Below, piece after piece: positions 22,905 through 63,094 of a stretch of 64,000 nucleotides of DNA. The DNA lies in the NCBI GenBank assembly GCA_030737835.1, contig CM060852.1:4827813-4891812 (forward strand), in the 5' to 3' direction. The stretch is from Acorus gramineus. Lineage: Eukaryota > Streptophyta > Magnoliopsida > Acorales > Acoraceae. The notes under the pieces are model-generated. The model searched no databases and was not told the origin of the DNA. It saw only the letters and a program-made list of their open reading frames with translations. The number at the start of each line of letters is the position of its first letter. Positions within the stretch are counted from its first letter, which is position 1. The translations under genes were made by a program, and so were the position numbers.

Positions 22905-24125
22905 GGATCAATTTCAGAAACTTTGCAAGCTAGTTAGTTCACAAGCATACATTTTGGATGCCCTCATTCCAAAAACTTCGCAAGCTAGTTCTTTGGATAA
23001 ATTTAGACTTATTTCCCTATGTGGAACGGTCTACAAGCTAATTACGAAGATCCTGGCTTGGAGTGCAAAAAGTTTGATCTTTAATAAGCCCCAATCAAAC
23101 TGCTTTTATCAAAGGAAAGAAAATTTTGCATTAAATCCTTTTTGCTCATGAGATGGTCAGATACTTGTCCAATAAAAATGGCAAATGACGTGTTGCGATG
23201 AAGATAAACCTGAGAAAAGCATTTAATTCAATAAGGTGGCCATACATAAGAATGGTGTTGAAAGCGGTGAATTTCCATCAAACTTGGATTGACTGGAGAA
23301 TGTCTTGCGTCCAATCTCCTTGTTTCTCAGTCTTAATCAATGGCTCACCATTTGTTTTTTTTTTGAAAGCTTCTCAGGTTATGGCAAGGGGATCCAATTT
23401 CTCCTCTCCTTTTTGTTTTGAGCATGGACAATTTGTCACAATAGTTGGATCAAGTGCTGAATAACAAAAAGATTGGAACATATACTAAGAAAGCCACCTC
23501 AGTTAGTCATCTTTTTTTTGCTGATGACTTGATCATTTTCTAAGCAAAAACAACAAATTCTAGACGGGGCTTAAAGGATCTTCTTGACCAATTTCTAGTA
23601 ATGTCTGACCTAGAGCTCAACAGAGGAAAATCATAGGTCTTTTGTGGGGGGCGTAATGAACATAATTGGCAATTGGTTGAGGCTCTCGGTATTTCTGAGG
23701 GGAAGCTGCCAGTCATCTATTTGGGGGTTGCCACTTTTCACAGGGGCACTCATTCCTCGTCTTTGTCTACCATTAGTTGATAAGTTGTGGAAACAGCTTC
23801 AACATTGGCACGGGCACATGCTATCATTGGCTGGCTGATTAGAGCTTGCAAACACAGTTTTTCTCATATTTTAAATTTATTGGACATCATCCTTCGCACT
23901 TCCTCAGTGAACAATGATGGAAATGGAAAAAATAATTTGATGCTTTATTTGGGGAGGTCCCTCGTTGAAGCGGTCTGTCCACCATGTTAGTTGGGATACA
24001 GTGTGAGCTCCGAATGAAGAAGTGGGTCTCAATTTGGAACGCATTGCAGATGGATGAAAGTGGCATTGGGTACCAGACTTTGGGAAGTGGCTACAGGGTC
24101 AAACTCTCTCTGGATTCGATGGTGA
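22905..24125 (+). mobile_element. Decayed LINE (L1-type) ORF2 fragment
   Basis: Conceptual translation in shifting frames gives landmarks of a plant L1-type reverse transcriptase in the right order: RLISLCGTVYKLITKILA (about 23007-23060), KAFNSIRWPYIRMVL (23215-23260), CFSVLINGSP (about 23325), the catalytic FADDL motif (23517-23531), YLGVA (about 23717), then WDTV-APNEE...GLNLERIADG (from about 23990). Several in-frame stops and frameshifts interrupt it. The endonuclease region, 5' UTR and poly(A) tail are absent, so this is an internal fossil and not a gene. Confidence 0.85.
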
Positions 24126-24133
24126 CAACAAGA

Positions 24134-24815
24134 TGTAGATACCCCAATTTTGATCATCCATAGAAAAGAAAATACTTCAAATAATATTTAGAAATGACCA
24201 CATTTGGAACCTAAAAGAAAACACATCTAGAATGAAACCGGAAGGAGAAACCCTGGCCCCAACACTACCCTGGCCCCAACACTTAGAAAAATTCAAGGGG
24301 CAGGAACATGGCGACTACTAGAAATTAGCCGCCCCTCCTTGGGCGGCTAGGTTGTATTAGCCGCCCCCCAACTGCTTCTCAAAGATGGGACATAAAGTTA
24401 GCATTAAATGCTGATGATTGCGGTGATTTCTTCTATTTGACTGCCCCTTCTTTGACGACTTACTCCTAGTAACCACCCCAAGCCACCACTTGTCAGAGAT
24501 TGAAAGTTTGACAGTTCATCATAGGGGTGACATCTTAAAAGTAGCCGCCCCTCACTGGGTGGCTAGTTACAACTAGCCGCCCCTAACCTGTATATTGTTA
24601 GAAACACGAAGATCTAATGGGAGGTCAAATTAACCACCCTATTATTCAATTTGATCTATTGTCCAGTGGATACTCCATGCCTCTCTTTTACTATAAATAG
24701 GAGGTCTCCAACACTTCTTCTAATCATCAACAATCACTCGTTCAAATCAAACACATTTTCATACACTACACCAAAATCTAGATCTTAGTCCAATTTCTAA
24801 TAAGGTATATGAACA
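24134..24815 (+). mobile_element. Probable LTR fragment (Ty3-type style), fossil
   Basis: Starts TGTAGATACCCCAATTTT, a start common in plant Ty3-type LTRs, directly after the LINE fragment. It has a good TATA box (CTATAAATAG, 24691-24700) and a promoter-like downstream leader. Four copies of TAGCCGCCC, in part paired with GGGCGGCTA, form hairpins (24327-24350, and 24541-24580 region). No partner LTR or coding region follows, so it is broken. The right end is uncertain. Confidence 0.4.
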
Positions 24816-34369: not shown

Positions 34370-35480
34370 TATACTTTTATCTGATTATTGTACTTTTTTT
34401 TTTTACTATTTATAACTAAAATTTTTTTTCCTAAAAAATGTGACAGGGTGGTCCTGTAAATATAAAATCCTTTATACTTATCTTCGAATACTGTACATTA
34501 ATCTTGATTAATTACTCATGAATATCTTAATATATAGCCAATTGTGTAGGCTTTAAATACAACCACATTAGTTTGATTTTTCAAATATCACCAATTAAGA
34601 TCTTCAACTCTAAAACTTAATTGCTCAACAGAATGGCCATAATATAATATTTGAGTTGTAAACTGTGCTAGTATAGAAGAATTAGACAATTTAATAGGTA
34701 AATGTATAACATCAAATATATACAGTAGGTAAGGATAATTCCATAGAGTACAGTACCACTTGTAGCCTCTCGGGTAACCTAGTCCTCACATGTTTTTATA
34801 ATTCTTTGAAAATATATACTTTATGTAACAAATCATGTTCTTTCATGAAAAAATGAATTGTTATTACCTATTTATTTTTTAAAAAATGCCTCCTCTAATG
34901 AAAGATATATCTCATTAATGAAATGAAATTTTATGCAGAGTTGCATATAAGAACTGCATGGAACATCACCTTTTCAATATTATTCAATCTAATCAGCAAG
35001 CTTCTTTTAAAAAAATATTCAGATAACATGGCCTGTATTCTACATGCATTTCAGGTTGTGATGCTTGTTTCTGTATATCTGAAGTCATCAAAATTATATT
35101 TTGTGCAATACAAGTGTAACACTGTATAAACTATAGTCACCATGATTATTATAATAATATCATTTTGTTTTTGGCTAAACAATGGAATCAAACAGTTTGT
35201 GGACCTAGCTAGGAAGTGGCTCTCTGAATCACTCATTTTTAAAAAGGGTTAGTTCTAATCATTTATTTGAGGAGCAGCTAAAAGACATAAATGAGATTTG
35301 ATTAATCCAAATTAAGAAATGGAGGTAGGTACTGTGTTTTAAGGTTATAAAATAGCATTTTGTCTTCTTTTTTTTTAAAAAAAAATTCAGTGGCCCTTGA
35401 GTGACGGTATGCAAATGAAGATCAAAATAAAAAACTAGGGCTGTGACATGCATATGAAGATTTTTCCCGAGGGAAAATTT
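34370..35480. other. AT-rich intergenic, nothing recognised
   Basis: No coding or transposon landmarks. A T-run/A-run pair at 35369-35387 is low complexity. Confidence 0.5.
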
Positions 35481-35482
35481 AT

Positions 35483-35582
35483 ACATATGAAAATTTTGTC
35501 TAAAGGATAATCTTAAATGTGCAGTTTTCAAGTGCTTTGATTTTTTAAAATATCAAAGATCATATGTTTTCAGATAAGATAA

Positions 35583-35617
<35 letters not shown>

Positions 35618-35728
35618 CATGTGAAAATTTTGTCTAAAGGATAATTTTAAATGTGCAGTTTTTAAGTGCTTTGATTTTTTAAAATGTCAAAGATCATATG
35701 TTTTCAGACAAGATAATATATATATATA
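35483..35728 (+). repeat. ~107-bp direct repeat flanked by (TA)n
   Basis: Unit containing GTCTAAAGGATAAT, AAGTGCTTTGATTTTTTAAA and CAAAGATCATATGTTTTCAG occurs twice, offset 134 bp, each followed by a (TA)n tract (35593-35618 and 35716-35731). The TA tracts suggest slippage-mediated duplication. Confidence 0.85.
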
Positions 35729-39686: not shown

Positions 39687-40440
39687 CCCTTGAATCTCAT
39701 AAAAATTCATTGACATCATTTAAATGTCATTTATAAGTTATTCTTAGATTTTATTGTATCATATCTTTTATATATCAATCACATGTCAATCTATTCACAC
39801 ATCTTTATTCCTACATTACTAATATCCTTAACTAATTGATATTGGATACACTCACCTACTTATAATATTAAAAAAATTTAAAAAATATATTTATTTTTAA
39901 AAACAATTAGTCATTCACTAGATCAACCTAACCCAATAAATAATAAAACAAAATAAACGAACATATCAAATACTCATACAAAAAAAATCTATATTATTAT
40001 TATTATTATTATTATTACTATTACTGTATAAAAGTCTCTTAACTCAAAAATTTGTTAAATAACCATTTTATCTCTAACAATCCATCCAATCCCATTACCA
40101 TCTATTCACACCACTTTAATCACAATCATTTCACCATTTTACCCCTTGAATCCCATAAAAATTCATTCACATCATTTAAATTTCATTTATAATCTATTCT
40201 AATACATAGATTTTATCATATCATATCTTTTATATATCAATCCCATGCCAATCCATTCACACATCTTTATTCCTACACTTCTAATATCCTCAACGAATTG
40301 ATATTGGATACACTCACCTACTTATAATATTAAAAAAATTAAAAAAATATATTCATTTTTAAGACAATTAGTCATTCACTATATCAACCTAACCCAATAC
40401 ATCATAAAACAAAATAAACAAACGGATCAAATACTCATAC
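39687..40440 (+). repeat. ~300-bp direct duplication, offset ~457 bp
   Basis: Copy 1 (39687-39979) and copy 2 (40142-40440) share CATAAAAATTCATT, ATCTTTTATATATCAATC, ACACATCTTTATTCCTAC, GATATTGGATACACTCACCT and AAATACTCATAC in the same order with moderate divergence. An (ATT)n run (39989-40017) and unique sequence lie between. No coding signal. They could be the ends of a decayed element or a plain segmental duplication. Confidence 0.85.
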
Positions 40441-40639
40441 AAAAAAAAAAGGATTTAATTTTTTTTTTCAGATACCCCTCTTTACGCCTAATAGATAAAA
40501 ATATATAACGATTATTAATGACAATCAGTAATTCATAGTAACAATGCAACCCAATAAAAAAAAAACATGTAAAATACTCATACACCAAAAAAAAAAATTG
40601 ATTGTAAAAAAAAGAAGAAAGGACTACATGAATGTTCAA

Positions 40640-42180: not shown

Positions 42181-45100
42181 ATGGCGAACGGACACAAAGG
42201 AGAGATCCCCGACAACGCAAACGAGCGTAAGCTCTCTTCATCCATCGCTGCTCCTTCAATTTTAGACAACCCTTGTTTGATTTGCTTTAATTTCCGTGTG
42301 TGTGCAAACCCTAGATTGCCCGGGCACCGAATCAGAGTCGGCAGGGAAGTCCGATGCGTGCAAAGGATGCCCTAACCAAGACGTCTGCGCTACTGCGCCG
42401 AAGGGCCCCGACCCAGGTTTCCCCTTCTTTTGCTATATGTGTTTTCATTTCTTCTTCATTTTTGTGATCCTATGTTGGTGCACTGGTTGGTTGGGTTGTT
42501 TTTTTTGGTCTGTATTGGGTGTCGGAGAAAAAAAAAATTAGTGCTTTTGTACTGAATTTATTTGATTTGAGTGCGTTTAGGGTTTTGTGTGGTCAATCGC
42601 CATTGGACTGAACTATTATGGTGGAAATAAATGAATTGATGGTGTTTTTGTTGTTGGAATAATCTGTATTGTTGTCAATTTTGTTTCACATGCAATTAAA
42701 TTTATTGGAATTATTTAGTTTTATAATAGTTTAATATATACACATCTTGGAACTACCTTTTTCTCCCCCATCTCCTTAGGGTTAGCAGTGGGGACCTGTT
42801 TGAAATGCAGCTTTCCACTTAGTGCTGTTTTTAGAATTAGATTTTCAAGAAGCATACATTTATATTCTTGAAAAGTTCCATATTTTTACTGTTTATCATT
42901 AAACGTTGTGGTTTAACTGCAATCATTTGGGGCGTTGGAAATACGTTTGGGCTAATTTGATTATTCAACCAAAACATGTTTCCAAACGCTATCTGCTTAT
43001 TTTCAATTTTTACGTGTTGTCTTCGATTTTTGTGTGTGTGTGGGGGGGGGGGGGGGGGGTGGTCGTGCGTGATCTACTTGGGACTGTGGGAGTTCACAGG
43101 CGTTGTTGGTGACTTTGTCCTGGGACATACTGAGCTTCATGCATAAGAAAATGAGGAGGTAGTATCATGAACTTTAAGGAACATAGACAGTGTTGACCTT
43201 TCTAATAGTTCATGTCCTAATCAGGCCTAGAGTTGAATTATAGTGGTTTGAGTTGAATTGTTTTTAAATGACTACAGCCCTATATAGCATAGGTTCAGTG
43301 TTGCACACGGCAAATAGAAATCTGGGTAGTAGCGTGTAATATTACAAATGTCTGAATTTGTAGCGTGCAATGCATCCTCCCACATCTGATTAGCAATGTC
43401 ATCGTGCCATGCAATAACTTACTCATGTTGTGTAACTTGGGATTTGAGTTCCTCATAAGAATCAGAACCTGCATCCTCCCGTTTTGGCATTGTGGGGGTG
43501 CCTCATCCTTTTTTGGATTCGCAATGTTGAACTCTTCTGCAGAGGTAGCAATACAATCAAAATCTAGCTTCTTTGTGATTTGTATGGTTGGGAAGGATGC
43601 ACTTCGAAGATAGTAAAAGAAGCTGTCAAGATGCCTATGCACTCAATTACATTCCGAATTATGAATTGAGATGTCTAAAACCCTATTTTTCATTTCTTGA
43701 CCAATTTGTGGTTCATGTTCCTTCAAATGATTGCACAATCTCTGTTGGGAGGGGGGGAGTGTTGGGAATTGCAGGTCTGTTTGGACAACCAGCTCAGGCA
43801 AAGAAGGGATCTGGAAAAAACTTTCCTTGCAATATATTCTTCAAAAAATGATAAAGCCAGGTGATAGTGACCTAAGCAACTGTACCCCATGAGAAGAAAT
43901 ATTTCTTAGAAATTTCATAAATTCATTTTTTTAGTGTTTGAATTTCTCCCTCATCATCAGGCACAGAAAATAAAATGAATCTAAAATGAATCATTCTGCT
44001 TAGTCGCAAAGAATGAGGAATGTTACATGAACGGATTAACCCGTAGCTCAGTGGTTGACAAGAGAAGTTACAATCAAAAGGTCATGGGTTTGAGTCTCAA
44101 CGTCTACAAAAAAAAATGCTTATCCTACAGTTGGTACATAACAATCCATAAATTGAAATATTGGACGAACATTGTCATGTCTCCTTCAATATGAAAGAAA
44201 GGAGATTGTTTTAAAAGAAGCACCTCATATTCAGGCAAGTAATTATAACTAGACCCATTTAACACAATAGAAGTAGATGTAATATGTATAATCTACCTAT
44301 ATACACCCATTCGGATACGTAATATTTGGAGGCAGCAAAAAGTATGATCCCGTGCACAGTCCATGGTTATATTGTGAAATGAGTGGAGCAATATTCCACT
44401 ATCTTTTGGGAGCGATATTCCAATATCGAATGACCTTTGGATCGGGGAAACGGCATTAAAGGAATGATTTCTGGCTATATTTCAGATTGCTCAGGATAGA
44501 GATGGAGGGGGTGATCAATTCTGGTCTCCACGCGGAGAAACTGGCTTTTGGGAGGTTGGGTTCGTCATAACCTGAACGATGATGAGGTAGAGAGTTATCT
44601 CGAGCTACTCGAACTTCTGTAGGGGCGTTCGGTAGTTCCATCAAGGAGGGACGAAATAGTTTGGAGGCCAAAGCCAGTCGAGGGGTTCTCTGTAAGGAGC
44701 AGCTATCATTGGTTGCGTAGGGATCCTGATCAATGTTGCCACAGCTATGAAGTACAATGAGATTTGGAGGTGCCATATTCCACTGAAGGTTAAGTCATTT
44801 ATGTGGATGATGTTCCTTGATAGAATCCTTACAAGAGATTGAATTGCTCAATGGGCTCCAGTGGTAGACAAAAGATGCGTCTTGTGCAGGGAGGAGGATA
44901 AGTCAGTTGCGCATCTATTCGTATTATGCCTGATTACGCGAGGAGTTTGGTCTTGGCTCCACTCGGCTATAGGCATGGAGTGCAACTTCTCGTCGATTGA
45001 GGAGTTGTGGGTGGCAGGCCGGGCGCTAAGGACTGCAGGTGACAAGAGTATGCGGGCAAAGGTTTCTGAATGCTTTGTTCCGGCAATGGTTTGGTCCCTT

Positions 45101-47604
45101 TGGCTTACAAGAAATGGGGTCTCCTTTCGTGGGGATTCACTGTATGCGGAGAATGTTTGGGAGTCCACCATCAGGTTTATCCGGGATTGGGGGAGGTATT
45201 GCACGGGAGTGGCGACCATTGTTTTGCAGGGGAGTATGTTAATCATTCAGGAGTGAGGGTGAGGCTCTTTGGTAGATCTCTCTTCTACCGGAGCACTTCT
45301 TTTCGTTGTCTTGATTGTATTTCCCAATTTTGGATCATATTCCTATTTTGAATAGAAGATGAAGGCCTACCGTTTATTTAAAAAAAAAAAAAATATTCCA
45401 CTATCACTATACATGGCCACTCGTATCAAAATTTCAACATCTTAGATAAAGCATATATATGCAGAATTGCTCGCATTTCTTTTTAAATTCTCATTCAGTT
45501 TCATAGCGTATTCTAATTGGTATAAACAATGTAATAAGAAGTTCCAATTTTTCTGTTAGTTATTAGAATTCTAGAACATATTCTTCTGACAGATGGGACT
45601 ACCACTCTTTTTTGGTTAACTAAATAAAGAAACACTAGTTATAAAGTATTACTATCCTATTTTTCTTTGGACACTTAGCAAATAAATTGGCTTTCACATT
45701 CTGCTCCTTCTCTAGGAGATTCTTGAGGTATCTATGCTCTAAAGAACCACGTAATATCTAAGGTCAGTTTTGTGGTAGCTCTGAAATCCAGATAAATTGT
45801 TGTTGCCTTGTTCATCTTGAATTCTAATGATGAATCTTGCAATTACAATACTAATTGCTTTCGTTTCTCCAAGTACATTGCATTTTGGGAAAGCTAACAA
45901 TAGCTGCAGTAGATATTTGGTGTCCTATCCTCTCCTGATATTTTAGAACTTGCTCCTACACCTTTTCCCCAAGTTTTTTTTTTTTTTTCAATATTCCTGA
46001 TTGTTGTTTCTTGAAATAAACATTTGCTCTTGCTCTCTTCCATGCCTCTGCTACCCCTTGCATTTTGTGCTAGTAATTGCAAGAAACTTGTACAGAGGTT
46101 AAATGCTGTCAATTGATGGATTGCATCACCTTTACCCTCAGTTTTCCTTTATGATAATGATCATTCATTTGAAGGTGGAGCCAGTGGAGTGTCACACCCT
46201 CTCAACCACTTTCCTGTTGAGCTAGCAAATGACTTGTACTTGGTTGGATATGGTGTATTATTGAGAAATTTATGGAGGTTGATGGTGCTATAACATTAAA
46301 GAAGAGTAGCATAATTGTAAAGCTGGCCCCGTATTAGTAGTGTTTAGAGCCTTCATAATGCTGCTGATGATATCATTATGGTCATTTTCTGATTCTCCGG
46401 CTGCATACTGGTTCTACTCCAGTTTACAATTGGGAATTTCCTTTATGCAATGCGAAGCCCCTTGGCTTTCTTCCACATTTATGATGATTCTTTAATAATT
46501 CCGATTTGTTATTTTGTTATGTATTAGTCGAATGTAAATTTTTTTGTAACTCTCACTCTTGCTCGCTGATCCAAAACTCTAAATCTAGATCTTCAGGTCC
46601 TAAATCTTAAAACTCTTACAAGCTCACTTTTCTACACCCCACTGCATCACAACTTTTAAAACACACAATGTATTTATTGATCCGTCAACTTCACATTGGC
46701 AGATTTAGTTGCCATAGCCGAACGGATGGCCAATGTGAAGCACAAGATACTTATACTCTCAGGGAAAGGAGGGGTCGGCAAAAGCACGTTCTCGGCCCAG
46801 CTGTCCTTTGCGCTTTCAGGTCAAGACCATCAAGTAGGGCTCCTCGATGTCGACATATGTGGACCAAGCATCCCAAAAATGCTTGGCCTTGAAGGACAGG
46901 ACCTTCACCAGAGCAACCTTGGTTGGTCCCCCATCTATGTAGAGTCCAACCTTGGTGTCATGTCTATAGGCTTCATGCTTCCCCACCCTGATGAGGCAGT
47001 CATCTGGAGGGGACCTCGAAAGAATGGATTGATAAAACAATTCTTGAAAGACGTCGATTGGGGTGAGCTTGACTATCTGATTGTGGACGCTCCCCCTGGT
47101 ACATCCGATGAGCACATCTCAATCGTGCAGTTCCTCAAGGCCACTGGAATAGATGGTGCAGTGATTGTCACAACCCCACAACAGGTCTCTTTGATTGATG
47201 TCCGCAAAGAGATCAGTTTCTGCAAGAAAGTAGGAATCAGAGTTTTGGGTGTTGTCGAGAACATGAGCGAGTTGAGGCAGTCGATTGCAGACCTTAAATT
47301 CATGAGCACAAGTGAAAGTGGAGGTGAAGTTGATGCGACAGAGTTGGCGATGAAGATCATACGAGAGAGAGCTCCGGAACTGTTGAATTTGGTTGCTTGT
47401 AGTGAAGTTTTTGATCGAAGTAGAGGTGGAGCGAGTGGTATGTGTTTAGAGATGGGGGTGCCTTTCTTGGGGAAGGTCCCGTTGGATCCACAGCTTTGCA
47501 GGGCAGCAGAGGAAGGCGTTTCGTGCTTCTCAGATGAACAAAAATGCAGAGCGAGCGCACCTGCACTTAAAAGAATCATGGACAAGCTGCTTGCAACGAT
47601 TTAA
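42181..47604 (+). CDS. NBP35: Cytosolic Fe-S cluster assembly P-loop ATPase NBP35
   Basis: Exons 42181-42226, 42315-42416 and 46703-47604 join in frame to 349 aa ([17 protein letters not shown] ... MDKLLATI). NBP35 is the scaffold P-loop NTPase of the cytosolic iron-sulfur assembly (CIA) pathway, building 4Fe-4S clusters for cytosolic and nuclear proteins. Seen: an N-terminal ferredoxin-like Cys motif C-x13-C-x2-C-x5-C (residues 17-39), a deviant Walker [40 protein letters not shown] and [17 protein letters not shown]. The C-terminal CPxC motif of yeast/animal NBP35 is absent: [16 protein letters not shown] replaces the usual VENMSGFxCPxC. That absence is known from plant NBP35. Start chosen at the first ATG of the exon, matching the family N-terminus. 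Length is normal. Confidence 0.96.
43028..43062 (+). repeat. (GT)n followed by a poly(G) tract
   Basis: TGTGTGTGTG runs into about 18-19 consecutive G. Such a run could form a G-quadruplex on the coding (non-template) strand of the NBP35 intron. The exact length is assembly-sensitive. Confidence 0.85.
44040..44118 (+). mobile_element. tRNA-derived SINE-like sequence
   Basis: Has a good RNA polymerase III A box (GTAGCTCAGTGGTTGAC) and B box (GGGTTTGAGTCTC) at tRNA-like spacing, then CTAC and an A run at 44106-44114. There is no acceptor stem pairing or anticodon arm, so it is not a tRNA gene. Family unknown. Confidence 0.55.
44404..45391 (+). mobile_element. 5'-truncated LINE with poly(A) and 14-bp TSD
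   Basis: Flanked by identical AATATTCCACTATC at 44390-44403 and 45392-45405, with an A run just before the second copy: a textbook target-primed insertion. The coding remnant is the C-terminal part of plant L1 ORF2, including the zinc-knuckle-like zf-RVT region ([18 protein letters not shown], from 44879) and [11 protein letters not shown] (about 45101). The 5' two-thirds is missing and frames are interrupted upstream of 44861. The perfect duplication suggests a moderately recent insertion. It is in the same direction as NBP35. Confidence 0.9.
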
Positions 47605-51539: not shown

Positions 51540-52310
51540 TTCATACCCCATTATTTGAAATGGGGATGAGTGTGATGGGGCATGGGGACCCGCCGCTAGT
51601 GCAGGGGCATATAGGTCATGAGGATGTGAGATGGGGTAGAGAGGTTAGGTTTTCAAAGAGGGCCTTTGACAAGGGATAAACATGATGGCAGGTAGCCGTG
51701 AGGGGAGGTGGGGTATGTAGGTTACAGAGCAATAGGGGAATAGGTGGTGGGTGGGACCCGTCACCAGAGCGGGGCGTGTATGTCACGGGGTGACAGGGAG
51801 ACTTGCAAAGGTAACATGTGCAAATTGGGGTGGAGTGTGCTAATTAATTAAGAGGCATGTGCAAACGGAGTTGGTTTACATGTATTTTAAATTCTTAATT
51901 ATTTTATTATAAGGACGTGCAAAATGACATGAGATGTGTAAATAAAGGCACCCTTTTCCATATCATACACCAAACATGAGAGGTTTCAATCATCACAAAT
52001 CTTTTTTGCGCAAACATAATCACTTCAAATGCTTTTAGTTAACTGCAATATAATACAATGAGAGATTTTTTGGATGTGGCCTTTAATTATTACAATATCA
52101 CGCATATGATAGATGAGATTTCAAGTTTGACATGTGTATATGTTTGCATACTTGAAACCTTATTTATGGCGAATATGCGGAGTGATCACGCGCAATTAAT
52201 GAAGATTATAAAAAATAGTTGGAGAGATGATATTATGTTGTATAAGATGGAATACTTGAGTCGTGCATTTGAAGTCAAGCAGAGCTGATTCTGCATGTGA
52301 TGGGGAAAGG
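51540..52310 (-). pseudogene. Paralogue C: flanks without a gene body
   Basis: 51540-52105 matches the 3' flank of the intact gene (61025-61645: AATGGGGATGAGTG, GGGCGGGGCATGTA-type blocks, GAGAGGTTTCAA, CATCACAAATC). 52128-52290 then matches the promoter side of that gene (62775-62945: CATATGTTTGCATAC, CTTATTTAT, GAAGTCAAGCAGAGCT). The whole transcribed gene is missing between, a deletion of more than 1 kb relative to the intact copy. Confidence 0.7.
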
Positions 52311-54389: not shown

Positions 54390-55060
54390 TTGTTTAGGAC
54401 TTTGATAAAAATTAATTGGATTTATGTGATACGTTTTGAACGTGTATATATATACTGTGAGAGTCAATATGGAAGATTGAGAAGTCAACCTGAGGTTGTT
54501 TAGAGTTGTTTCTAACATTCTAATAAGTGATTGCCACTCGCTATCTTGACAGTTTCTTCACACGATTTCGTGCAATGTGCGTGAAATAAAATTAAATAAT
54601 GAACGGTTCCGTGTAATGTGCGTGAAATAAAATTAATGAATCTTTTAAAAAAATACACCAACAAAAAATAGAGTAAAATAATTCGATCAAACCCCTATAA
54701 TCTCAATGATTTCTTTCTATAATAAAAAAAATAAAATAGAACAAAATAGATGGACCCCAAACCACATGGCCACATCCCTATAACCCTACAAATAATATGA
54801 TATGTTAATAAATTCTCAAAAACAGTCCACCAATAAAATCATAAAATTAAATTAAATTAAAATGAAAATATACTCAATCGTTGATAACAATAGCTATTTA
54901 AGAATTATTTTATGAAAGATAATAAAATTTATGAAAGATAATAAAATTTAGTGAATATGTAACAAAGATTATTTTTCAATTAATTTTAATTACTTTGTTT
55001 GATAATATGATTTTATAGAAAATCTATCATCTATCTTGATATAGTCTTATGCAAGTGCAA
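54390..55060. other. AT-rich intergenic, nothing recognised
   Basis: Short local duplications only (GTGCGTGAAATAAAATTAA at 54579 and 54611; TTATGAAAGATAATAAAATT near 54910 and 54931). No coding signal. Confidence 0.5.
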
Positions 55061-55064
55061 CATT

Positions 55065-58000
55065 CTATTATATAAGGATAAAATAATCTCAATGATATAA
55101 ATATATATTTAAATGTGGAATTAAGAAAACGTATCACAATTAAATCATAGAGTGTTCACAACACAACGGTTCAGGGTGTTAGATGATATCTAATCTAATC
55201 TCGGTTGTTGCACAATTTTTTTTTTTGACGAGAATCTCATTTTTAAGATAATTGATCCAAAGGGATGAATGAACCCAAACAATACAAAAAATATAAAAAG
55301 AGCAATAAACACAAGAATTTATGTGCATGGTTTCCTCAACATGTGGTACATCCATGGACTCTGCACACGACCATTTATTATCGAAAAATGTGGTGTATAA
55401 AGCTCTTACAAATTCATCTCTCTTTCTCAAACCACTCGTTCTTCACTTTTGAAGATGCCTAGCTACAAACTTATTTATATAACATTCAAAGGGGAAGACA
55501 GACAGTCCAAGTTTTTAAAACATATTTATCAAATTAATTATAATTTTAAAATACATTAAAAAGAAAATCGGGAATTTAAACTAACATTAGAGGTGAAAAT
55601 CGTAACCGTCTCTTTAATTATGGAGATCAGTTATTGAAAAAGAAAGAAAAGAGTATAATAGGTATTAAGCCCATGCCACCATATGGGGCTTCCGATGGGG
55701 CCTAAAAATCATTATTGTTTTACTATATAAGGATAAAATAATCTCAATGATATAAATATACATTTAAATGTGGAGTTAAGAAAAAGTATCACAATTAAAT
55801 CATGGAGTGCTCATAACACAACAGTTCAGGGTTTTAGATGATATCTACTCTGATCCCGTTGTTGCAGGGAATTTTTTTTGACGAGAATCTCATTTTTAAG
55901 ATAATTGATCCAAAGGGATGAATGAACACAAACAATATAAAAGATATAAAAAGAGCAATAAACATAAGAATTTTTGTGCATGGTTTGGTACATCCATGGA
56001 CTCTGCACACGACCATTTATTATCGAAAAATGTGGTGTATAAAGCTCTTACAAATTCATCTCTCTGCTTTCTCAAACCACTCGTTCTTCACTTTTGAAGA
56101 TGCCTAGCTACAAACTTATTTATATAACATTCAAAGGGGAAGACAGACAGTCCAAGTTTTTAAAACATATTTATCAAATTAATTATAATTTTAAAATACA
56201 TTAAAAAAAAATCGGGAATTTAAACTAACATTAGAGGTGAAAATCGTAACCGTCTCTTTAATTATGGAGATCAGTTATTGAAAAAGAAAGAAAAGAGTAT
56301 AATAGGTATTAAGCCCATGCCACTTTATGGGGCTTCCGATGAGGCCTAAAAATCATTATTGTTCCACTATATAAGGATAAAATAATCTCAATGATATAAA
56401 TATACATTTAAATGTGGAGTTAAGAAAAAGTATCACAATTAAATCATGGAGTGCTCATAACACAACAGTTCAGGGTTTTAGATGATATCTACTCTGATCC
56501 CGTTGTTGCAGGGAATTTTTTTTGACGAGAATCTCATTTTTAAGATAATTGATCCAAAGGGATGAATGAACACAAACAATATAAAAGATATAAAAAGAGC
56601 AATAAACATAAGAATTTTTGTGCATGGTTTGGTACATCCATGGACTCTGCACACGACCATTTATTATAGAAAAATGTGGTGTATAAAGCTCTTACAAATT
56701 CATCTCTCTCTTTCTCAAACCACTCTTTCTCCACTTTTGAAGATGCCTAGCTACAAACTTATTTATATAACATTCAAAGGGATAGACAGATAGTCCAAGT
56801 TTTTAAAACATATTTATCAAATTAATTATAATTTTAAAATACATTAAAAAGAAAATCGGGAATTAAAACTAACATTAGAGGTGAAAATCGTAACCGTCTC
56901 TTTAATTATGGAGATCAGTTATTGAAAAAGAAAGAAAAGAGTATAATAGGTATTAAGCCCATGCCACCATATGGGGCTTCCGATGGGGCCTAAAAATCAT
57001 TATTGTTCTACTATATAAGGATAAAATAATCTCAATGATATAAATATACATTTAAATGTGGAGTTAAGAAAAAATATCACAATTAAATCAGGGAGTGCTC
57101 ATAACACAACAGTTCAGGGTTTTAGATGATATCTACTCTGATCCCGTTGTTGCAGGGAATTTTTTTTGACGAGAATCTCATTTTTAAGATAATTGATCCA
57201 AAGGGATGAATGAACACAAACAATATAAAAGATATAAAAAGAGCAATAAACATAAGAATTTATGTGCATGGTTTGGTACATCCATGGACTCTGCACACGA
57301 CCATTTATTATCGAAAAATGTGGTGTATAAAGCTCTTACAAATTCATCTCTCTTTCTCAAACCACTCTTTCTCCACTTTTGAAGATGCCTAGCTACAAAC
57401 TTATTTATATAACATTCAAAGGGATAGACAGATAGTCCAAGTTTTTAAAACATATTTATCAAATTAATTATAATTTTAAAATACATTAAAAAGAAAATCG
57501 AGAATTAAAACTAACATTAGAGGTGAAAATCGTAACCGTCTCTTTAATTATGGAGATCAGTTATTGAAAAAGAAAGAAAAGAGTATAATAGGTATTAAGC
57601 CCATGCCACCTTATGGGGCTTCCGATGGGGCCTAAAAATCATTATTGTTCTACTATATAAAGATAAAATAATCTCAATGATATAAATATACATTTAAATG
57701 TGGAGTTAAGAAAAAGTATCACAATTAAATCATGGAGTGCTCATAACACAACAGTTCAGGGTTTTAGATGATATCTACTCTGATCCCGTTGTTGCAGGGA
57801 ATTTTTTTTGACGAGAATCTCATTTTTAAGATAATTGATCCAAAGGGATGAATGAACACAAACAATATAAAAGATATAAAAAGAGCAATAAACATAAGAA
57901 TTTATGTGCATGGTTTGGTACATCCATGGACTCTGCACACGACCATTTATTATCGAAGAATGTGGTGTATAAAGCTCTTACAAATTCATCTCTCTCTTTC

Positions 58001-59360
58001 TCAAACCACTCGTTCTTCATTTTTGAAGATGCCTAGCTACAAACTTATTTATATAACATTCAAAGGGATAGACAGACAGTCCAAGTTTTTAAAATATATT
58101 TATCAAATTAATTATAATTTTAAAATACATTAAAAAAAAATCGGGAATTTAAACTAACATTAGAGGTGAAAATCGTAACCGTCTCTTTAATTATGGAGAT
58201 CAGTTATTGAAAAAGAAAGAAAAGAGTATAATAGGTATTAAGCCCATGCCACCTTATGGGGCTTCCGATGGGGCCTAAAAATCATTATTGTTTTACTATA
58301 TAAGGATAAAATAATCTCAATGATATAAATATACATTTAAATGTGGAGTTAAGAAAAAGTATCACAATTAAATCAGGGAGTGCTCATAACACAACAGTTC
58401 AGGGTTTTAAATGATATCTACTCTGATCCCGTTGTTGCAGGGAATTTTTTTTGACGAGAATCTCATTTTTAAGATAATTGATCCAAAGGGATGAATGAAC
58501 ACAAACAATATAAAAGATATAAAAAGAGCAATAAACATAAGAATTTATGTGCATGGTTTGGTACATCCATGGACTCTGCACACGACCATTTATTATCGAA
58601 AAATGTGGTGTATAAAGCTCTTACAAATTCATCTCTCTCTTTCTCAAACCACTCTTTCTCCACTTTTGAAGATGCCTAGCTACAAACTTATTTATATAAC
58701 ATTCAAAGGGATAGACAGACAGTCCAAGTTTTTAAAATATATTTATCAAATTAATTATAATTTTAAAATACATTAAAAAGAAAATCGGGAATTAAAACTA
58801 ACATTAGAGGTGAAAATAGTAACCGTCTCTTTAATTATGAAGATCAGTTATTGAAAAAGGAAGAAAAGAGTATAATAGGTATTAAGCCCATGCCACCATA
58901 TGGGGCTTCCGATGGGGCCTAAAAATCATTATTGTTTTACTATATAAGGATAAAATAATCTCAATGATATAAATATACATTTAAATGTGGAGTTAAGAAA
59001 AAGTATCACAATTAAATCATGGAGTGCTCATAACACAACAGTTCAGGGTTTTAGATGATATCTACTCTGATCCCGTTGTTGCAGGGAATTTTTTTTGACG
59101 AGAATCTCATTTTTAAGATAATTGATCCAAAGGGATGAATGAACACAAACAATATAAAAGATATAAAAAGAGCAATAAACATAAGAATTTATGTGCATGC
59201 TTTGGTACATCCATGGACTCTGCACACGACCATTTATTATAGAAAAATGTGGTGTATAAAGCTCTTACAAATTCATCTCTCTCTTTCTCAAACCACTCTT
59301 TCTCCACTTTTGAAGATGCCTAGCTACACACCTATTTATAACTTTGAAAGGGATATAAGA
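55065..59360 (-). mobile_element. Head-to-tail array of LTR-like units with 36-bp spacers (fossil)
   Basis: Complete units lie at 55206-55823, 55860-56467, 56504-57111, 57148-57753, 57790-58396 and 58433-59040, with partial units at 55065-55168 and 59077-59360. On the - strand each unit begins TGTTGTG and ends GCAACA, has a TATA box (TTATATAAATAAG) and LTR-like 3' sequence. Each 36-bp spacer holds ACGGGATCAGAGTAG, resembling the Copia primer-binding site TGGTATCAGAGC. Period is about 643 bp. No coding domains are present anywhere, so it is broken. Inner units are near-identical by eye; the left edge is more diverged. Confidence 0.8.
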
Positions 59361-60955
59361 TGTAAGCCTAAAAGATAGGGTGAATACAAGTGACCATTAT
59401 AACTCATTAAACAACAAAATGTACATGCTAGATCTTTCGGATTGTTTCGCACATTCAGACCTCTGAGATAATGTCTGGATCATACAGTACATGAGATGAA
59501 ATCCGATCTCTTGGGGTTGTGGTGTAACGGCTATGGTTTTTCTTAGTCATTTCATATTTTCAAGTTAAATTTTTTGTGCTTTGGACCAATTAGTGTAAGA
59601 TTTTGGAGAATTTATATTCTTCTATTTTCAAAAGTCATGTGATTGGAATCATTATTCTATTAGCTTTCCAACCATCGATTGGAGTTGTATCAGTTAAGTT
59701 ATGGGCCAATCTTATCAGCGGGGTGTTAGGTTGTAGGTTTTAGATGGCCGGGTTGCAGCCATCGGGTTTGGATGACCCTAACGAGAGCTGTCGATTTCTT
59801 GACCGCCCAAATATGAGCCATCAGTCTGTCTGGCCAATCTGCTTCATCTTCTACCATTTCTGCTTTGGGTCTGTTTTGGATGGGAAGAGGTGAAAAACTC
59901 ACCCCTAAACCTATGAGTTTTTTTATTTAGGTTTCTCCTCTCTCTCTTTTTCCTTCAAATCCTTAAAGTGAAGTCTCTCTCTCTTGTTTTTTTTTGTTTG
60001 GTGTGTGTGAGTGAAAAATCAGTGAAAGGATTTTCAAAGAGGGAATTGGTGAGTAATTTCTGATTCTATAGTATGTTTTTGGATGATGGTATTAGATCTT
60101 ACAAGTTTATTTTCAGAATTGTTTATTTCTTGAGTTCTTCTTCTTGGGTTTTTCATGAATTTTGATGTAGTTTAAATGATTTTTGAATCCTTATGTTATA
60201 GCTACAAAATTATGAAGTTTTCAAGATGTCTTACAAATTTTTCATGTCAAAAGAATATGATTAATTATGTATATATCATGCCTAGATTTGTTTATTAAAG
60301 GTAAAAACCATGTTTAAGATTGTTTAATGTCTTGTCTTGACCCATATATGCATGGATCCAAAATTCCACATGTTTTTTTGTTATTGTTTACTCGACTTTT
60401 AATATAAATCCATGTTAGTTGTTTTTGTATATGATAGATCTAAAATTTTCAAGAATTTTTTAATAGAATTTAATGGTTTTATATGATTCCTTTTAGATCT
60501 ATGGTTAATGAATAAAAGGATATCATCCCAGGTATAATAACATGTTGATCCTTACTATTTTCAAAGGGTTTTCATCGAGCATGTTCATGTCTTCGTATTT
60601 ACCAATTATATTTATCATTTTATCGAGTATGTGCATGGGATCATATCTACTGAGATCCCAGTTGTTGCAAAAAATTTTTTTGACGAGAATATGATCTATA
60701 CGATAATTAATCTCCGGGTGAATACAAGTGATGATTGTAACACATTAAACAAGTGATGGGGTGAATACAAGTGATGATAGGGTGAATACTATAAGATGTA
60801 GGCCTAGAAGATAGGGTGAATACAAGTGATGATTGTAACACATTAAACAACAAAATGTACGTGCTAGATCTTCCCTTTGTAATAACATCTGGATCATATA
60901 GCACATGAGATGGAAATCCAATCTCTCCGGGTTGTGGCGCATCTGGACTATATTT
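59345..60955 (+). repeat. Duplicated ~170-bp segment plus stray LTR-like end
   Basis: 59365-59530 and 60783-60955 share AAGATAGGGTGAATACAAGTG, AAACAACAAAATGTAC (two short motifs), CTGGATCAT and GGGTTGTGG in order. At 60650-60700 the sequence GATCCCAGT followed by TGTTGCA and TTTTTTGACGAGAAT repeats the spacer/unit junction of the array at 55065-59360, so a decayed relative lies just beyond the array. Confidence 0.65.
59640..60000 (+). other. Moderate-GC segment, possible LTR or leader
   Basis: TCCAACCATCGATTGGAGTTG and a CT-rich stretch (TCTCTCTCTTTTTCC) recall LTR or 5'-leader sequence, but no ends or coding region can be set. Left unassigned. Confidence 0.25.
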
Positions 60956-61024
60956 GGGACTGAAAACAGGTTGAATATAAAAGTTTTCTTATTTACACCC
61001 CTTTACACACCCTGTATATTTTTC

Positions 61025-61645
61025 AGATCCATTTTATATATCCCACATTATTTGGAATGGGGATGAGTGCGATGGGGCGTAGGAACCCATCATTGGGGCA
61101 TCACATACAGGTCATGAGGCGGTGGGAGGGCTAAGGTTTCGCAGAGGGCCTATATATGTTGAAGGATGAGTGTGATGGGACATGGCCGGGGCGGGGTGTA
61201 TAGGTTATAGAGGCGATATATGGGGGAAGAGGCAGTCGGAGGAGCCTCGATTAGGATTTTGGAGAGGGAGTGGAACTCGTCCTCAGGGCGGGGCATGTAT
61301 TCATGTGGCAGTTGGGGTGGATATGTGCGTGTGCAAAGATAGGGTGTGCATATAGGGTGGAATGTGCTAGAGGGTGATGTGCAAAATGATTTGGTTTAAA
61401 TGTATTTTGAGTTCTCAATTATTTTATCAAAAGGGTGCAGTGTGTAAAATAAAATGAAATTTGCAAATAATGACACCCTTTTTCATGACATCCACTAATA
61501 TATATACACGAGAGGTTTCAACCATCACAAATCCTTTTTTTCCCCCAAACACAATCACTTCAAATATTTTTATTTAGTTGTAATACAACGAGGGATTGTT
61601 TAGATGAACCCTTTAATTTTAATATCACACATACCACATATGAAT
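61025..61645 (-). repeat. 3' flank of the intact gene, shared with paralogue C
   Basis: GC-richer, G-rich on the + strand (GGGGATGAGTG, GGGCGGGG), matching 51540-52105. It marks the segmental duplication that carried the cell-wall-type gene. Confidence 0.65.
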
Positions 61646-62738: not shown

Positions 62739-62812
62739 TATTTTGTTTTAAAGCTTCACTCAAATAAGATATGAAGTTTGTTTGAGATGCATATGTTTGC
62801 ATACTCGAACCC

Positions 62813-62820
62813 TATTTATA
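62813..62820 (-). promoter_or_regulatory. TATA box of the 61.8-62.7 kb gene
   Basis: TATAAATA on the - strand, within CTATAAATAGGG, about 75 bp upstream of the ATG and spaced for a short leader. The equivalent position in relic C (near 52165) has lost the TATAAATA match. Confidence 0.75.
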
Positions 62821-63094
62821 GCCAATATTTTCAGAGGTCATAAATAAATATTGAGATGATGTAATTAATATGTGTATAAGTTGGAAGACTTTGATTTTCT
62901 CAGAAAGACAAGGAAATATCCGAAGTCAAGCAGAGCTATCTAATTCATTTCACCGTTTCATCAAACATGTAAAGACTAGCTCGTCACTATGCCGTTTGGT
63001 AAATAAACATGTAACACCTTGCCCCTATCAAAGATGAAATATTTTTTTTTAGTGTTTTTCTTATAGATAAATATTTTTCTTGATAAAATTTGTT

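Follow-up and report, generated by a model that had tools for sequence, protein, structure and literature searches.

Plants are described as commonly carrying LTR elements in tandem as well as tandemly arrayed TRIMs (TA-TRIMs) (PMC4717578, PMC11899658). TA-TRIMs are reported from 35 of 43 genomes (PMC4717578), and 266 tandems of LTR-retrotransposons from a 76-accession rice pangenome (PMC11899658). Published accounts also give up to seven LTRs for Wukong (PMC4528315) and at least 12 LTR copies in tandem for Cassandra (PMC7215508). According to a review on satellites made from transposon parts, short tandem arrays can arise from nearly every part of an element, with unequal exchange a named route (PMC12628747).

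The 64-kb stretch of DNA analysed here (hereafter, the window; G+C content 33.7%), probably plant nuclear sequence, contains a head-to-tail array. Self-comparison of the window places the block at 55063 to ~59356 in a single, plus-strand orientation. It consists of six units of 642–655 bp and one 422-bp partial copy, all on the same strand, in which a block A (alignment columns 1 to ~436, ~430 bp, seven copies) alternates with a block B (~222 bp, six copies):

55063 to 59356, plus strand: whole tandem array, A-B-A-B-A-B-A-B-A-B-A-B-A (7 A, 6 B), from self-comparison, unit alignment and unit profile
55063 to 55717, plus strand: unit U1, 655 bp; over its first ~281 columns it represents a distinct lineage of A (21 substitutions in 268 sites relative to the inner majority)
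55718 to 56361, plus strand: unit U2, 644 bp, from the unit alignment
56362 to 57005, plus strand: unit U3, 644 bp, from the unit alignment
57006 to 57647, plus strand: unit U4, 642 bp, from the unit alignment
57648 to 58290, plus strand: unit U5, 643 bp, from the unit alignment
58291 to 58934, plus strand: unit U6, 644 bp, from the unit alignment
58935 to 59356, plus strand: partial unit U7p, A only, 422 bp; its last ~28 columns are diverged, after which the right flank joins

The array is real, chance being excluded by kilobase-long matches of 94–97% identity. A preliminary description of the locus had divided it into LTR-like segments joined by a constant 36-bp spacer, and under that segmentation we likewise count seven spacers, six complete segments of ~608 bp and two partial ones, head to tail in one orientation. 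The near-identity that it noted among inner units also holds: over A, pairwise identity is 98.1–99.3% within U2–U6, 92.1–94.5% between U1 and the others and 96.9–97.9% between U7p and U2–U6, and over B it is 96.3–99.1% across U1–U6. The spacer, however, is near-constant in six of the seven copies (one substitution, in U6), whereas that of U1 is 37 bp long and carries four substitutions and one insertion. Near the spacer, columns 87–258 are equally constant among U2–U6, column 120 being the sole variable one. Searches of other collections, where absence says little, returned no distant blastn match to the array among plasmids, no occurrence of a 21-base pattern in viral contigs (a non-plant collection) and none of a conserved core pattern in bacterial or archaeal genome contigs or in viral contigs.

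In their published descriptions, TA-TRIMs (PMC4717578) and Wukong (PMC4528315) resemble the array in the alternation of repeat and spacer, the single orientation and the (LI)nL layout, and Wukong also in its proposed origin, recombination between elements. TRIMs, however, are described as having terminal direct repeats, target-site duplications of 4–6 bp and a total length below 1,000 bp, whereas A-B-A measures ~1.08 kb, A lacks TG/CA ends and no such duplication is seen: the segments 55031–55075 and 59336–59380 share only A+T-rich words (for example, GATATA), none of them at element ends. Cassandra arrays, in which an LTR forms the unit, an internal domain forms the spacer and TGGTATCAGAGC is the primer-binding site, would be comparable if the unit were an LTR, but Cassandra LTRs carry 5S rRNA sequence (PMC7215508), and we rejected this assignment as the window has no Rfam family at gathering score. 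Tandem LTR-retrotransposons, described as widespread in plants, likewise form tandem copies with shared LTRs; unlike the array, they show LTRs and internal regions in alternation, with target-site duplications on either side (PMC11899658). The satellites of the review derive from transposon parts (PMC12628747), whereas the unit of our array has no assigned parent element.

Only the first and the last copy, U1 and U7p, have an outer edge, and they differ from each other at 49 alignment columns. Across columns 6–281, all five inner units (U2–U6) agree with U7p at 34 of 35 such differences, 11 of the 34 belonging to a single 11-bp indel; the exception is column 268, private to U7p. At six columns further on (409, 412, 417, 418, 425 and 428; four substitutions and a 2-bp indel), all five inner units instead agree with U1. 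They are mixed at columns 3, 320, 355, 356, 379 and 384, and columns 435–436 run against the pattern, with four of the five matching U7p. When the alignment is divided at columns 281 and 409, boundaries picked after inspection of the data, U1 differs from the inner majority by 21 substitutions in 268 sites over columns 1–281 and by 6 in 374 thereafter (Fisher P = 1.8e-4), and U7p by 4 in 26 over columns 409–436 and by 3 in 394 before (P = 3.6e-4; this test omits the last two columns, one of which differs). The U1–U7p distance is 0.091 over columns 1–281, 0.025 over 282–408 and 0.276 over 409–436, and the mean distance among inner units is 0.018. In this alignment, the inner copies have the appearance of recombinants between one type found at the left edge and another found at the right.

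Exchange between units was probably repeated, with the inner units reshuffled among themselves, because they often fail the four-gamete test. Among U2–U6, 23 of 45 informative-site pairs do not fit a recombination-free tree (minimum of 4 recombinations), nor do 42 of 78 among U1–U6 (minimum of 6); the sites are few, 10 and 13, respectively, with singletons and multi-state sites left out, and repeated mutation can also cause four-gamete failure.

The array is probably a local tandem repeat that expanded through successive rounds of unequal exchange, accompanied by gene conversion among its units. This would be ordinary local tandem amplification, an everyday type of event that requires no function. 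Its precursor would have been A_left-B-A_right, two direct ~430-bp copies that differed by ~8–9% and were separated by ~222 bp. If A_right paired out of register with A_left, an exchange within or beside the stretch in which the two are most alike (columns ~282–408) would have produced A_left-B-A(chimera)-B-A_right, and further rounds could then have given seven A and six B while parental sequence was kept at the outer edges. An inner A is predicted to take its first part from the right parent and its last part from the left parent, which matches the data except at columns 435–436. Recombinant and homogenized inner copies between divergent edges are what such growth should leave and are what we find, those two columns again being against it; the repeat itself is observed directly, as are the chimeric pattern and the shuffling among units. 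Decay of the edges of a homogenized array predicts nearly the same pattern, but it likewise needs exchange between units. The locus offers a clean, small case of tandem-repeat growth in which both edge copies can be read and the inner ones look like recombinants of them; survival of both edges is the mildly useful point here.

Of the two routes suggested in the preliminary description, repeated unequal exchange is thus supported by the chimeric inner copies and the reshuffling among units. Integration of a ready-made concatemer from a rolling circle or eccDNA is disfavoured: insertion in one step would not leave the left part of U1 alone diverged, at 21 of 268 sites from the inner majority compared with 6 of 374 in the remainder. 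Near-identical tandem units are also difficult to assemble, and the copy number depends on the assembly. That the count was inflated or units misjoined is nevertheless very unlikely, as each of U2–U6 has private substitutions or indels, which argue against a simple copy-paste error, and the differences between edge and inside are orderly.

A profile of the unit, run across the window, recovers the seven copies and one more significant relative, the three remaining matches listed having E values of 0.95 or worse. The relative lies to the right of the array and, like the last A, is followed by a copy of the flanking sequence R:

59354 to 59543, plus strand: flank R, right of the last A; it recurs at 60787–60958 (E = 2.7e-57), behind the relative of A
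60638 to 60737, plus strand: old, degenerate relative of A, covering unit-profile positions 119–207 (E = 8.8e-11), with the second R copy behind it

Because R recurs behind this relative, the A-R arrangement had probably already been duplicated earlier, with a period of ~1.6 kb. Within the stretch that the relative covers, at ten substitution columns that separate U1 from the inner type (represented by U2), it is inner-like at six, U1-like at two and neither at two, which weakly suggests that both A lineages carry changes of their own. Short internal repeats of R occur at 60716–60752 (E = 2.7e-8) and perhaps at 60755–60778 (E = 0.11). The window has further short direct duplications at 376–928 (98% identical), 35477–35727 (93%) and 39687–40448 (90%). 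Duplications of this kind, the old A relative and R ~1.6 kb further on as well as those elsewhere in the window, fit local amplification.

The preliminary description took the unit for a Copia-type LTR with the start of its leader and primer-binding site. On this reading the minus strand would hold an array of tandem LTRs, or a TRIM-like one, whose two outer LTRs are truncated; we consider this unlikely. Ends of the form TGTTG...CAACA can be placed, and 1 nt past CAACA stands CGGGATCAGAGT, which matches the initiator-methionine primer-binding site TGGTATCAGAGC, that of Cassandra (PMC7215508), at 9 of 12 positions; the tRNA-iMet site was the one used for comparison.

55847 to 55858, minus strand: primer-site-like 12-mer of the preliminary description, an example between the U1 and U2 segments; 3 of 12 positions mismatch TGGTATCAGAGC, and there are six such copies

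The window has 202 CAACA sites when both strands are counted, and of these only the six array copies have a 12-mer with three or fewer mismatches within 0–4 nt, and the relative at 60.6 kb has TGGGATCTCAGT after CAACAAC, with four mismatches. However, 12-mers with three or fewer mismatches occur at 41 sites window-wide, 35 of them outside the array, and U1 has six primer-site mismatches, has lost its TG end and has ACAACG in place of ACAACA at the proposed LTR end. No polypurine tract precedes the proposed LTR, the 15 bases before its start containing 6–7 purines in all seven copies, and six-frame scans of 52–62 kb contain no retrotransposon domain, the six families listed all scoring below curated cut-offs. 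Nor do the array edges coincide with the proposed LTR ends. The array is bounded by A on either side, the proposed joints between LTR and spacer fall within A with the spacer in mid-A, and the array starts and ends inside the proposed outer LTRs, 106 and ~280 bp from their ends. No target-site duplication is seen, although truncated ends would have lost one. With the terminal motifs and the primer-site match as the only points in favour, the case for the unit as a retrotransposon end is weak, and the array gives no support for a new route of retrotransposon amplification; even if the LTR identification were true, the phenomenon is already known.

Truncated Helitron arrays, with many 5′ ends and one 3′ end, are reported for plants in the review (PMC12628747). 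It is highly improbable that our array is one of them. U1, U4 and U5 do start with TTCTA(C/T)TATATAA, and B has a weak hairpin ahead of CTAA. The other four of the seven units, U2, U3, U6 and U7p, start with TTTTAC or TTCCAC and so lack a TC start, and the hairpin pairs at five of six positions; a scan of the window gives 135 sites of this type, of which six are those of the array. The CTAA is followed by A and then 12 nt more sequence, not by the T expected after a Helitron end (5′ TC, 3′ hairpin with CTRR, insertion between A and T). What we take to be the maize Helitron 5′ consensus has no match in the array at one mismatch or fewer. We rejected the assignment on the starts and on the lack of a convincing hairpin and CTRR-T end.

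Each of the seven units carries TATAAAG 59–62 bp before an ATG, with a CT-rich stretch between them. The unit might be a gene start (promoter, leader and initial codons), perhaps from a gene for a TIR-type immune receptor, that was truncated before it was amplified; this we judge improbable.

55455 to 55556, plus strand: 34-codon frame in U1, 59 bp past TATAAAG, with a weakly TIR-domain-like start

The sole PDB match of this frame at E ≤ 10 is to the start of the flax L6 TIR domain, but at E = 1.5. With a profile of four TIR sequences the frame is the best in the window (13.1 bits), a score that 2 of 60 Markov windows from one chain reach. Under a five-sequence profile it keeps its top rank in the window, and shuffling the peptide 20,000 times gives an equally good score twice, but its score falls to 9.6, which 67 of 300 block-wise Markov windows equal. 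The fifth reference sequence and the block-wise null thus faded the 2-in-60 lead, and we dropped a TIR-gene start as a firm claim. The frame has no Pfam match, and six-frame scans of 52–62 kb find no TIR domain. It also stops early, after 34 codons in U1, U2, U5 and U6 and after 16 in U3 and U4, and the U7p version departs from the others after four codons, with a stop after 20. The TIR-like frame is at present an unproven lead. That unequal exchange made about seven promoter-and-start copies without a gene body, a satellite of TIR-like gene starts, is somewhat less probable still; if true, such a satellite could yield many short transcripts.

The same TATAAAG motifs bear on the proposal that about seven TATA-bearing promoters had been brought close to an intact gene at 62 kb. 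The motif count stands, at seven of seven units, but the gene, a predicted 90-amino-acid glycine-rich protein, is read on the minus strand, with 62738 and 61767 as its limits, and the argument from proximity is weak. The array lies ~2.4 kb past its 3′ end, with the gene start facing away; because the array is beyond the 3′ end, its TATA boxes are not upstream of the gene. A long transcript from them would reach the gene in antisense, 3′ end first. The protein is small and looks secreted, and its match to GRP (E = 0.0022) is under the cut-off.

Direct repeats of ~73–76% identity, ~9.5 kb apart, link 51543–52176 with 61040–61633 and 62756–62828. The right copies flank the glycine-rich gene on both sides, and the left one may be a decayed duplicate minus the gene. 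Elsewhere in the window, a NUBPL-type P-loop NTPase frame occupies 46681–47601 (Pfam E = 1.5e-88). Weak fragments of LINE-type reverse transcriptase lie at 23189–23461 and 44843–45253, with scores of E = 1.1e-5 for zf-RVT, just under the cut-off, and E = 0.0066 for RVT_1, also under it. At 24321–24583, GC-rich hairpins (GGGCGGCTA / TAGCCGCCC) stand beside CTRR words and possibly mark a transposon end.
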